A stretch of 64,000 bases of DNA from a bacterium (lineage in GTDB: Bacteria > Eisenbacteria > RBG-16-71-46 > CAIMUX01): positions 1-64,000 of the forward strand of contig JAUIHP010000005.1 of the NCBI GenBank assembly GCA_030431975.1. Direction: 5' to 3'. The translations under genes and the position numbers were made by a program. The first letter of the stretch is position 1. Every line of letters starts with the position of its first letter. Shown here piece after piece: positions 20,784 to 24,360 of this stretch. The notes below the pieces were generated by a model that saw nothing but the letters and a program-made list of their open reading frames with translations, searched no databases and was not told the DNA's origin.

Positions 20784-21749
20784 GTGGAAACCACTTTCCC
20801 GTGCCCCAAGTGCCGCTCCATTCTGCGAACCCAGTATCTGTCCCCAGGTGAGCTTGCACAGTGCAAGGCCTGCGGAGACCTGGTGCCTGTTCCCGAGACT
20901 TCCATTGCGCCGGATCCTGACTCGAATGCACCGGGGTCGAGTGAATCGGGCTCGGCCGGCGGGCCGCCGGGTGCGGTCCCTCCGCCCCTTCCCCAGTTTC
21001 TGGCCGGAGATGGCGCGAAGTGGACGACTTCACATGAGTTTCGAATCGGCCCCCTGATTTCCCAGACCCTGCGAGAGTCCTTCCTTCAGTTTCACCGGTA
21101 CGCCCCCCTCGCGGCGATCGCGGTGCTTCCGTCCATCCTCGGACTGATTCTCGGGATCGCCGGCAACGAAGGACTCGCCACGTTCTTCATCGACGGCTTG
21201 GGGCAGTGGCTCTCAAACGTCTTCAACGCGCTGTCGAGCGCTGCGATCATCTCCGCGACCTACCGACGGCTTCAGGGAAAGCCCGTGTCTCTCGGAAGTG
21301 CCTTCGCCGACGGTATGAGTCATTGGCTCTCCTACTTCTTCCTACTCATACTGGTCGGCCTGGTCGTCTTCTTCGCGTCGCTCATCCTGCTGCTGCCGGG
21401 AATCTACGCCATCCTCACGTTGGCGGTAGCAGGTCCAGCCCTGGTGCTCGAAGACTACGGAGTCACCGAGTCCATGCAACGCAGTTCGGAACTCGTCTCC
21501 GGTTACCGGTGGAAGCTGCTCGGTTTCTATACCGCCCTCTGGTTCCTCGGTGTTCTCTTCTTCATCATCTTCGCCGTCCTCGTTTTCTCTGAGGAAGCGA
21601 CCTTCTCGTTGATGGAGACGTTCTTCGTCATCCTGTTCACTGTGGTTGCGCAGATCCTGGCCAACGTTTCGGCCACCGTGGTCTACAAGGAACTGCGGGC
21701 GGCTCACGGAGACTTCGATCAGACGGAACTGATTTCCGTTTTCGAATAG
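20784..21749 (+). CDS. Zinc-ribbon plus multi-helix membrane protein
   Basis: This 321-residue protein starts at GTG 20784 with GGAG 6 bases upstream. The N-terminus holds two Cys pairs (CPKC at 7-10, CKAC at about 30-33), a zinc-ribbon-like module. A Gly/Pro/Ser linker follows, then six or so hydrophobic helices from about residue 105. The membrane part (VLPSILGLILGIAG, LILLLPGIYAILTLAVAGP, ALVLEDYGVTESMQRSSELV) resembles the uncharacterised DUF975 / glycerophosphodiester-phosphodiesterase membrane-domain type. A cytoplasmic zinc ribbon on such a domain suggests a regulatory or scaffolding role, but this is only inference. Confidence 0.65.
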   Translation: METTFPCPKCRSILRTQYLSPGELAQCKACGDLVPVPETSIAPDPDSNAPGSSESGSAGGPPGAVPPPLPQFLAGDGAKWTTSHEFRIGPLISQTLRESFLQFHRYAPLAAIAVLPSILGLILGIAGNEGLATFFIDGLGQWLSNVFNALSSAAIISATYRRLQGKPVSLGSAFADGMSHWLSYFFLLILVGLVVFFASLILLLPGIYAILTLAVAGPALVLEDYGVTESMQRSSELVSGYRWKLLGFYTALWFLGVLFFIIFAVLVFSEEATFSLMETFFVILFTVVAQILANVSATVVYKELRAAHGDFDQTELISVFE

Positions 21750-21762
21750 CCGGCTTTTTCTC

Positions 21763-21768
21763 TATAAT
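21763..21768 (+). promoter_or_regulatory. -10 element of the ABC-F leader transcript
   Basis: A perfect TATAAT lies 14 bases after the preceding gene's stop. The -35 position 17 bases upstream (TTTCGA) is a weak match. Transcription would start near 21775 and produce a leader of about 115 bases before the ABC-F start. Confidence 0.5.
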
Positions 21769-21770
21769 CA

Positions 21771-21890
21771 CGGTTCACCCCAAACGGAGGAGCGACATGA
21801 AGAACTGATCCGATTTCCGCGACCATTCACCCCCGATCACCCTCGGGCTCACCGTGAACCGGCTGTCGCCAAAACGGATCAGGAGTCTTT
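21771..21890 (+). promoter_or_regulatory. Candidate ribosome-sensing attenuator leader of the ABC-F gene
   Basis: CTGATCCG at 21805-21812, which begins in the last leader codon and covers its stop, is the exact complement of CGGATCAG at 21875-21882. The latter contains the first two bases of the ABC-F ribosome binding site AGGAG (21881-21885). A second hairpin, CCCGA/TCGGG (21832-21836 / 21843-21847), lies inside. A third complement, CGGTTCAC (21771-21778) with GTGAACCG (21854-21861), crosses the first and could form only on read-through transcripts. A ribosome stalled on the leader ORF would block the first helix and free the ABC-F start. Structure was assessed by eye, not folded. Confidence 0.45.
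21797..21808 (+). CDS. Three-codon leader ORF (Met-Lys-Asn-stop)
   Basis: ATG AAG AAC TGA is preceded by GGAGGAG (21786-21792), as strong a ribosome binding site as any in the window, with 4 bases of spacing. It is far too short to be a functional protein, so the likely role is to place a ribosome on the leader mRNA upstream of the ABC-F gene. Whether it is translated is untested. Confidence 0.45.
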   Translation: MKN

Positions 21891-23450
21891 ATGTCCGGTA
21901 CTTCCGGCCTCTCCGCGTCTTCAACGCTCGTTGCCGACTCGATTCACATTTCCGTTCCCGGCGGGCGAACGCTCGTCGACAGGATCTCGCTCGCTCTGAA
22001 TCCCGGCGACAAGCTGGGAGTCATTGGAGCGGAGGGAACGGGCAAGTCCTCCCTGCTTGCGGCCCTGGCTGGGCAAATGCCGAAAGGTCTGCGCGCATCC
22101 GGTCGTGTGGAGCGTCCGCCACAGGTCGCTCTGCTCGAACAGACGCTGGAGGAGGGCTGGCAGTCCCATTCCGTGGTCGAGTTCCTGCTTCTGGACACTC
22201 CCGGGACAGAGATTCCCCTCGAACGGTGGAATACACTTCAGGACTCCGTTGCTTCGATCATCGAAGTCGGGCTCGACCCCGCATGGATCCATGAGGAAGA
22301 CCGTCCGCTTCACACCCTGAGCGGTGGCGAACGGGTGCGCCTTCGCATAGCCAAACTCCTGCAATCCCAGCCGGATCTTTGGCTGCTGGACGAACCGACG
22401 AACGATCTCGATATTCCGACTCTCGAGTGGCTGGAGGGCTTTCTGCTGCGGACGGAGAGTCCGGTCGCGTTCATCTCTCACGACGAAACGCTTCTCGATC
22501 GGTGCGCCAACCGCATTCTCTACTTCCAGCGTCTGGTCTACACCGATCGGACGGAGGTACGACTCGAGTCGATGGGGTACCTGGAGTTCGTCGGCACCCG
22601 CGCCCGACAGATCGAGAAGCAGGAACAGGAAGCGGCCAACCAACGACGCGAACGCGCGCGGGCCGAGCGCGTGCTTCGTGAGCACAAGTCGCGCGTGCAG
22701 TCGGCGCAGGAGAAGATCAAGGACTCGTCCGCCCGGCGCTTGCTCAACAAGAAGATGAAGGTCATTACGACTCGCGAAGCCAAGCTCGAACGCAACCCGA
22801 CGATCGAGAGACCCGAGGACGTCGAAGCCATCCAAATCGACTTTCCCAACGCCTGCAGGACACCGGAAGGAAAGACGGTATTGCAGTTCGAACTCCCGAC
22901 TCTCTCAGCGGGGCCGAAGACGCTGGCTCGGGACATCCGGCTGAGAATCCGAGGTCCGGAGAAGGTCGCCATTATCGGCCGGAACGGAGCGGGCAAGACG
23001 ACGCTGGTCCGGGCAATTGCGGAACACCTGCGTGCTGCCGGTAGCGAGTTCGGGTACTTCCCCCAGGAGCATGACGAAGAGCTGACGGATCCGAACCGGA
23101 GAGCCATCGACTATGTCGTCCATCCGGAGCGCGGCGTGGACATGACCATGGCCGGGATTCTCATGGCGCGTCTCAACATCGCGCGGGATGAAGTCGTGCT
23201 TCCCGTGAAGGAACTGAGCGGAGGGCAGCGGGCAAAGATCGTCTTGTTGCGGATTCTCAGCGGATCGGGGTTTCTGCTCTTGGACGAGCCGACGCGGAAC
23301 TTGTCACCTCTTTCGAACCGGGTTTTGCGGAGGGCGTTTCGCGATCATCCGGGCGCCCTGTTGGCGGTGACGCATGATCGGGCGTTTGTTTCGGAGGTGG
23401 CGGACCGGGTGCTGGAGTTGACACCGGAAGGTCTTTCCCCCCTGCACTGA
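21891..23450 (+). CDS. ABC-F family ATPase (ribosome-associated, possible antibiotic-resistance type)
   Basis: This 519-residue soluble protein has two ABC cassettes and no membrane segment. Cassette 1 has Walker A GAEGTGKSS (46-54), LSGGE (143-147) and LLDEPTNDLD. Cassette 2 has GRNGAGKTT (about 363-371), LSGGQ and the unusual DEPTRNLSPLS at 465-475. The roughly 80-residue charged linker between them (about 225-310, rich in Arg, Lys, Glu) is the P-site tRNA-contacting segment of ABC-F factors, which act on stalled or antibiotic-bound ribosomes. I recall the DEPTRNxSPLS wording from Lsa/Vml-like resistance members, which would make ribosome protection plausible. The upstream leader ORF fits that idea. 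Confidence 0.88.
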   Translation: MSGTSGLSASSTLVADSIHISVPGGRTLVDRISLALNPGDKLGVIGAEGTGKSSLLAALAGQMPKGLRASGRVERPPQVALLEQTLEEGWQSHSVVEFLLLDTPGTEIPLERWNTLQDSVASIIEVGLDPAWIHEEDRPLHTLSGGERVRLRIAKLLQSQPDLWLLDEPTNDLDIPTLEWLEGFLLRTESPVAFISHDETLLDRCANRILYFQRLVYTDRTEVRLESMGYLEFVGTRARQIEKQEQEAANQRRERARAERVLREHKSRVQSAQEKIKDSSARRLLNKKMKVITTREAKLERNPTIERPEDVEAIQIDFPNACRTPEGKTVLQFELPTLSAGPKTLARDIRLRIRGPEKVAIIGRNGAGKTTLVRAIAEHLRAAGSEFGYFPQEHDEELTDPNRRAIDYVVHPERGVDMTMAGILMARLNIARDEVVLPVKELSGGQRAKIVLLRILSGSGFLLLDEPTRNLSPLSNRVLRRAFRDHPGALLAVTHDRAFVSEVADRVLELTPEGLSPLH

Positions 23451-23640: not shown

Positions 23641-24360
23641 ATGGCCTCGATCCTGACCTACGCCCACCTCGCCAACGCCGTCTACGAGGATGACCCCTCG
23701 GTCGAAGGCTGGGTCCGGGCGGACATGCAGTCCACCGTCTCGAGCCTTTGGGAAGGCGACGGATTTCAGGGCGCGGCCTTCAAGAATGCCGACGAGATCG
23801 TCTTCGCATTCAAAGGAACGGCCAACCTGCAGGACGTGGTCACGGACATCAAGCTCGGGGTCGGGATGAACACCGGCCAGTTCTATCAGGGATACCAGTT
23901 CGTCAAGCAGACCCAGATTCCCGAGGGGACGAAGGTGACGATCTGCGGCCATTCTTTGGGCGGCGCCATCGCGCAGATCGTCGGGAACCGGCGCCGGATG
24001 CGCTTCGTCACGTTCAACGCTCCCGGCGTCGGAATCGTTTCAAGAAACGTCGGCGAGATGGCGGCCACCGTGGCGACGGGAACGATGGCCCTGCGCACGG
24101 CAGGCGCCTTGGTCAGCGCGGTCCGGCATCCGGTCCAGGCCATGCACGATGTCGGATCGTTCTTCAACCGGGTCCAGGGCGTCAACTTCCGGGTCGGCAG
24201 CGATGTCGTCGGGAGCATCGGCGTTCACTACGGGGACGTCATCGAGTTGCGCTACTCCGGCGGCGCCATGGACCTGCTGGCCAAGCACAAGATGGATGCG
24301 GTCCTCACCGCTCTCGGCGAATCATCGTACGGGGGAATGCAACTCTCGGCCCTCGTCTGA
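23641..24360 (+). CDS. Class 3 (Rhizomucor-type) lipase domain protein
   Basis: This 239-residue alpha/beta hydrolase has the nucleophile elbow G103-H104-S105-L106-G107-G108 after a strand reading TKVTICGHS, and the preceding oxyanion-type segment IVFAFKGTANLQDVVTDI typical of lipase class 3. Asp and His of the triad are probably in the C-terminal third (for example the GVHYGDVIEL segment), which I cannot fix by eye. It has no signal peptide, so it is cytoplasmic or released by another route. The ATG has AGGAG 7 bases upstream. The 190-base gap before it has no recognised gene. Substrate unknown; monoacylglycerol or ester hydrolysis is the family activity. Confidence 0.82.
   Translation: MASILTYAHLANAVYEDDPSVEGWVRADMQSTVSSLWEGDGFQGAAFKNADEIVFAFKGTANLQDVVTDIKLGVGMNTGQFYQGYQFVKQTQIPEGTKVTICGHSLGGAIAQIVGNRRRMRFVTFNAPGVGIVSRNVGEMAATVATGTMALRTAGALVSAVRHPVQAMHDVGSFFNRVQGVNFRVGSDVVGSIGVHYGDVIELRYSGGAMDLLAKHKMDAVLTALGESSYGGMQLSALV

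Follow-up and report, generated by a model that had tools for sequence, protein, structure and literature searches.

The leader of an ARE-like ABC-F gene in the window (the whole stretch of DNA that was analysed, 64,000 nucleotides long) is likely to act as a translational attenuator, presumably controlled by drug-dependent stalling of a ribosome on a three-codon leader ORF (uORF) that encodes MKN. Among the readings that we weighed, a drug-inducible and purely translational attenuator is the most likely, and the leader is real and probably functional. Direct support comes from the elements in the leader, from its predicted fold and the unusual strength of that fold, from the modelled effect of a ribosome footprint, and from the uORFs of homologous ABC-F genes. 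From these we infer a transcription start, translation of MKN, drug stalling, induction and a protective function of the ABC-F protein.

Organization of the leader

Every element named in the original prediction is present at its coordinates, as judged both by direct reading and by script. The features, including those added by RNA folding, are as follows:

21763..21768, + strand: candidate -10 box TATAAT (sequence), without a clear -35; transcript start expected at ~21775-21777
21787..21793, + strand: leader-ORF Shine-Dalgarno GGAGGAG (sequence)
21794..21803, + strand: 5' arm of a 10-bp helix, GACATGAAGA, pairing with 21886-21895 (RNA fold)
21797..21808, + strand: leader ORF of three codons, ATG AAG AAC TGA (MKN) (sequence); the same kind of uORF occurs in 23/33 nearest homologues
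21805..21812, + strand: 5' arm of an 8-bp helix, CTGATCCG, over the uORF stop codon, pairing with 21875-21882 (sequence, fold)
21814..21874, + strand: upper part of the hairpin, 21814-16:21872-74, 21819-23:21865-69, 21826-30:21854-58 and 21832-36:21843-47 (RNA fold)
21875..21882, + strand: 3' arm of the 8-bp helix, CGGATCAG, running into the ABC-F Shine-Dalgarno (sequence, fold)
21881..21885, + strand: ABC-F Shine-Dalgarno AGGAG (sequence), beginning where the 8-bp 3' arm ends
21886..21895, + strand: 3' arm of the 10-bp helix, TCTTTATGTC, including the ABC-F start codon (ATG 21891) (RNA fold)
21891..23450, + strand: ABC-F protein, 519 aa, ARE-like with an extended interdomain linker (Pfam, NCBIfam, tree, linker); nearest solved relative by sequence Lmo0919

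The 8 bases over the uORF stop codon (CTGATCCG, 21805-21812), which had been described as complementary to the beginning of the ABC-F ribosome binding site (RBS), are indeed the exact reverse complement of CGGATCAG at 21875-21882. The sequence also contains an inner hairpin (CCCGA/TCGGG, 21832-21836:21843-21847) and an outer pair of complementary segments, CGGTTCAC at 21771-21778 and GTGAACCG at 21854-21861. The outer complement had been proposed as a mutually exclusive alternative. It exists, but is probably no working part of the leader, since a transcript starting at ~21775-21777, as expected from TATAAT, would leave most of its 5' side untranscribed. The proposed promoter was borne out in part: TATAAT is present at 21763-21768, but a promoter scan of the leader returned no two-hexamer match and no good -35. 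Neither a scan of the leader nor a script comparison with homologues found an intrinsic terminator, and the genome holds no further exact copy of ATGAAGAACTGATCC. A frameshifted N-terminal extension of the ABC-F protein was rejected, as reading this frame upstream meets a stop after 11 codons without any start codon on the way.

Predicted fold and modelled effect of a ribosome on the uORF

Free leader RNA was predicted to fold into one long hairpin spanning the uORF and the ABC-F start. The 8-bp helix and the apical parts agree with the original prediction, which had nevertheless overlooked the 10-bp helix 21794-21803:21886-21895, so that the predicted pairing is longer than proposed. This helix consists of 9 Watson-Crick pairs and one G-U, its two strands carrying the start codons of the uORF and of ABC-F, respectively, and uORF-RBS pairing as a whole spans 21794-21812 with 21875-21895, along the uORF. 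To open the ABC-F initiation region (-15..+15), a predicted 25.5 kcal/mol is required, compared to a genome mean of 14.2 (sd 4.2); this is the 4th highest value among the 297 gene starts compared within the genome.

Refolding with a ribosome footprint on the leader had been put forward as a check together with the original prediction. A ribosome modelled on the uORF, its P site occupied by AUG or its A site by UGA, reduced the opening energy of the ABC-F start from 21-29 to ~7-15 kcal/mol (the ranges depend on the 3' end and the region chosen), so that one of the most closed starts in the genome became ordinary in this respect. The ABC-F start codon, fully paired in the free fold, was 0.2-0.5 paired under the modelled footprint. 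Two aspects of the model count against the attenuator reading: the ABC-F Shine-Dalgarno, whose core is ~40% paired in the free fold, was still 0.5-0.8 paired under the footprint though the start codon opened, and the uORF start codon itself lies inside the helix. Further points against it are the missing -35 of TATAAT, an NF000355 score under the cut-off, and the lack, among 47 phylum genomes, of an orthologue in which this particular leader might be seen to be conserved.

The ABC-F protein and its origin

The 519-aa product matched ABC_tran twice (Pfam), giving two ABC domains in one chain and no membrane domain. Its best NCBIfam model was NF000355 (ribosomal-protection ABC-F) at 283 bits, under the 380-bit cut-off, and the uORF-bearing homologues tested against this model likewise fell under the cut-off, at 256-265 bits. 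The best solved relative by sequence was Lmo0919 (7nhn). At 162 residues, the interdomain linker is longer than in the housekeeping-type ABC-Fs compared (137-142), a trait common to the window protein and its other-phylum homologues, and the protein differs from the housekeeping ABC-Fs found in its genome and phylum. In a tree that included no experimentally proven ARE protein, it grouped with the other-phylum homologues, whose best model was ribo_prot_ABC_F, at 100/100, and formed the outermost lineage of that group, its branch being long (1.73). Judged by its sequence, it is a probable antibiotic-protection protein of ARE-like type.

No orthologue was detected at E <= 1e-55 among the 46 other genomes of the phylum (47 total), and a broader set of 385 genomes yielded just one other with a match at this threshold. 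Horizontal acquisition of the ABC-F gene would fit this distribution and the tree; a plasmid origin was rejected, there being a single plasmid match of 29% identity. Synteny with family genomes was uninformative, the neighbours being mostly absent. The gene preceding ABC-F (20784-21749) encodes a membrane protein that matches the YciC family weakly, and is present in 1/10 other genomes of the order, at 33% identity. The gene following it (23641-24360) is class 3 lipase-like (Pfam Lipase_3), with no sign of a common unit with ABC-F.

uORFs of homologous ABC-F genes

The original prediction had looked to relatives for conservation of the uORF and the helix. Among the 47 genomes of the phylum there was no orthologue of this leader, and a DNA search with it returned short chance matches only; a uORF and hairpin were, however, found in distant homologues. 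For this comparison we used the 33 nearest ABC-F leaders, most of them from a single order belonging to a different phylum. A 3-4 codon uORF preceded by a Shine-Dalgarno was present in 23 of them, representing 15 genera, at 163-242 nt upstream of the gene, compared to 2.0 +/- 1.4 (maximum 7 in 200 rounds) expected from dinucleotide shuffling. Only 1/28 housekeeping-type ABC-F leaders carried a comparable uORF. The encoded peptides include MRK, MNK, MLK, MTK, MRF, MHL, MFA, MHA, MRS, MIIK, MTIK, MTNK, MFNK and others. In addition to the 23, a five-codon uORF (MLNNL) was seen by eye in one leader (L072), while two homologues (G082 and G100) had no 3-4 codon uORF with a Shine-Dalgarno within the range examined.

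In all 23 uORF-bearing homologues the uORF stop codon lies within a predicted helix, and uORFs paired more strongly with their own downstream sequences than with permuted ones (mean -23.4 vs -15.9 kcal/mol; 0/20,000 permutations as good). Since swapping the downstream sequences abolishes pairing, each uORF arm has changed together with its partner, in fewer independent events than there are sequences because some genera have several members in the set. The window uORF likewise paired best with its own downstream sequence in this exchange test. The layouts differ: in the homologues the 3' arm of the uORF helix lies well upstream of the gene, and our script reported a terminator-like hairpin in 23/23, mostly 17-56 nt before the gene, whereas in the window the 3' arm falls on the ABC-F start itself. 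Given a separate uORF hairpin plus terminator in the homologues and neither arrangement in the window, the mechanism is not simply identical.

Leaders L070 and L072-L100 represent a large ABC-F set from one order, with 3-4 codon uORFs and a terminator-like hairpin before the gene; these ABC-Fs apparently form a general uORF-attenuator family. A limited search of the open-access literature found no earlier reports of 3-4 codon uORFs for this ABC-F clade. The TGA stop is followed by TC in 7/9 of the homologues with a TGA stop (L075, L077, L082, L084, L086, L090 and L095), and the same TGATC occurs in the window at 21806-21810; this could reflect shared ancestry, termination context or relatedness. 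In L067 (G100), the ABC-F match at 771-2249 contains one in-frame TGA, and the near-identical copy in G082 is open; the interruption may be due to decay, an error or recoding.

Comparison with chance and the genome background

Shuffled sequences and other gene starts of the same genome served as controls. An exact complement of the RBS region of >=8 nt arose in 0.8% of base-shuffled leaders, and an ORF of <=4 codons with a strong Shine-Dalgarno in ~0.4% of shuffled leaders. The fold of the whole leader had z = -3.1, with 0/200 shuffles equally stable, and its duplex with the RBS was matched by 1/2000 shuffles. Against a background of 297 gene starts located in 457 kb of genome sequence, the ABC-F leader ranked 5th by duplex z and 13th by RBS pairing; these ranks are approximate because the background gene calls were simple (longest ORFs, start picked by Shine-Dalgarno).

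These figures bear on whether the leader is merely a stable, unregulated sequence that keeps ABC-F expression low, its Shine-Dalgarno, ATG and stop being a coincidence, an explanation that we regard as unlikely. It draws on the comparably hidden starts in the genome (13/297 by RBS pairing, 4/297 by opening energy), on the occurrence of short ORFs preceded by a Shine-Dalgarno in shuffled leaders, and on the lack of an orthologue in the 47 genomes of the phylum. Against it, the combination is rare, and homologous ABC-F genes carry such uORFs at ten times the shuffle frequency. While each part of the leader is only moderately rare by itself, their combination, and above all the homologues, are convincing.

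Relation to known attenuators and proposed mechanism

uORFs of this size are known from other ABC-F genes. That of Bacillus subtilis vmlR encodes MIN, with natural variants MDN, MDK and MRK, and both its Shine-Dalgarno and its AUG are needed for induction by lincomycin, which, like retapamulin, is described as stalling initiating ribosomes (PMC9226507). The cplR uORF encodes MRI and requires its start codon for drug induction, the VmlR2 uORF has the consensus MK[L/Q], and that of LsaA encodes MAGN (PMC10201436); for VmlR, CplR and VmlR2, regulation by a three-codon uORF has been established or predicted (PMC9226507, PMC10201436). The original prediction had called a three-residue leader that works through initiation or termination unusual. 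This part does not hold: with MIN, MRI and MK[L/Q] on record (PMC9226507, PMC10201436), and with descriptions of the cognate drugs as halting ribosomes during initiation, three-residue leaders are the norm for such regulation. Its central proposal, that a ribosome held on the uORF keeps the ABC-F start open, remains the best reading in light of the 23/33 homologues and the vmlR and cplR papers.

The vmlR leader resembles that in the window in having a three-codon uORF, driven by a Shine-Dalgarno and embedded in a hairpin, before an ARE ABC-F gene whose own Shine-Dalgarno is hidden, and its variants MDN, MDK and MRK are similar to MKN (PMC9226507). It differs in its 219 nt, four stem-loops, intrinsic terminator and RNA polymerase pauses (PMC9226507), compared to ~120 nt, one hairpin and no terminator found in the window. 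The leader of cplR, from Clostridioides difficile, also combines a three-codon uORF in a hairpin with a hidden ABC-F Shine-Dalgarno, but uses two hairpins and hides the Shine-Dalgarno in a terminator, while in the window the uORF strand itself covers the RBS; translational attenuation alone can hold cplR off (PMC10201436). The toiL-topAI leader of Escherichia coli shares the single uORF-RBS hairpin, which opens when a ribosome stalls on the uORF start codon or further along, and the lack of an intrinsic terminator, but its uORF is longer, the operon it controls is of the toxin-antitoxin type, and Rho-dependent termination within the gene also plays a part (PMC12121999). MsrDL (MYLIFM), the leader of msrD in Streptococcus, is likewise a very short ORF before an ABC-F resistance gene, but has six codons and acts by macrolide-specific arrest at termination and transcription attenuation via an intrinsic terminator (PMC10314930). 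The window leader thus has the 3-4 codon uORF with its own Shine-Dalgarno, the uORF in a hairpin and the RBS hidden in the repressed fold that typify vmlR and cplR, lacks their intrinsic terminator, and has the pairing with the gene RBS along the uORF that typifies toiL. Lacking a terminator, it represents a translation-only variant of the vmlR/cplR type, with a layout closer to toiL.

We propose that, without drug, a ribosome would pass rapidly over the MKN ORF, after which the leader would close as the long hairpin, with the uORF in the 5' arm and the ABC-F RBS and start codon in the 3' arm, leaving ABC-F untranslated. A blocker of early peptide synthesis (by analogy, of the pleuromutilin, lincosamide or streptogramin A type) would hold a ribosome at the uORF start. 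As the uORF is paired over its full length, a ribosome stalled at any position within it should suffice to cover the 5' arm and prevent closure of the hairpin. The open RBS would then allow ABC-F to be made, which would clear the drug from the ribosome.

We also considered whether the uORF is a sensor whose arrest is set by its peptide or by termination (fMKN at UGA), as in MsrDL, instead of by a ribosome at the start codon, and assign this a small probability. Three residues hardly reach the exit tunnel, and the highly varied peptides of the homologues (MRK, MLK, MRF, MHL, MFA, MIIK) argue against a fixed arrest sequence. The position of the stop codon, inside the 8-bp helix here and inside a helix in 23/23 homologues, would suit such a sensor, as would the arrest of MsrDL at termination (PMC10314930) and the weaker induction of the vmlR MRK variant, which indicates that codons matter somewhat. 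An RNA switch that works without a ribosome (thermometer or ligand riboswitch) and to which the uORF is incidental is very improbable, for although such switches are often built as a long hairpin over Shine-Dalgarno and AUG, the modelled hairpin did not open between 25 and 50 C, the window has no Rfam family match, and the homologue uORFs would be left unexplained.

Significance

Taken together with the known systems, a drug-dependent translational attenuator in this leader would be an instance of a known principle, that of the Bacillus and Clostridioides switch, its novelty lying in a compact build and an unexpected bacterial group. What is new in the build is that one hairpin links the uORF and the ABC-F RBS directly, with no intrinsic terminator seen. 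The chances are about even that the leader is, more specifically, a single-hairpin, purely translational ABC-F attenuator in a phylum without an earlier description of such regulation, with the three-codon uORF serving as the anti-RBS strand, possibly in the smallest build, and sensing any block of initiation instead of a peptide. With one hairpin in ~120 nt, it would offer a simple test of whether occupancy of the start codon suffices for induction without a peptide signal or a terminator. The homologue survey points to 3-4 codon uORFs across the ABC-F clade sampled in 15 genera, and the finding would extend drug-sensing mini-uORFs before ABC-F genes beyond the Gram-positive groups in which they were worked out.
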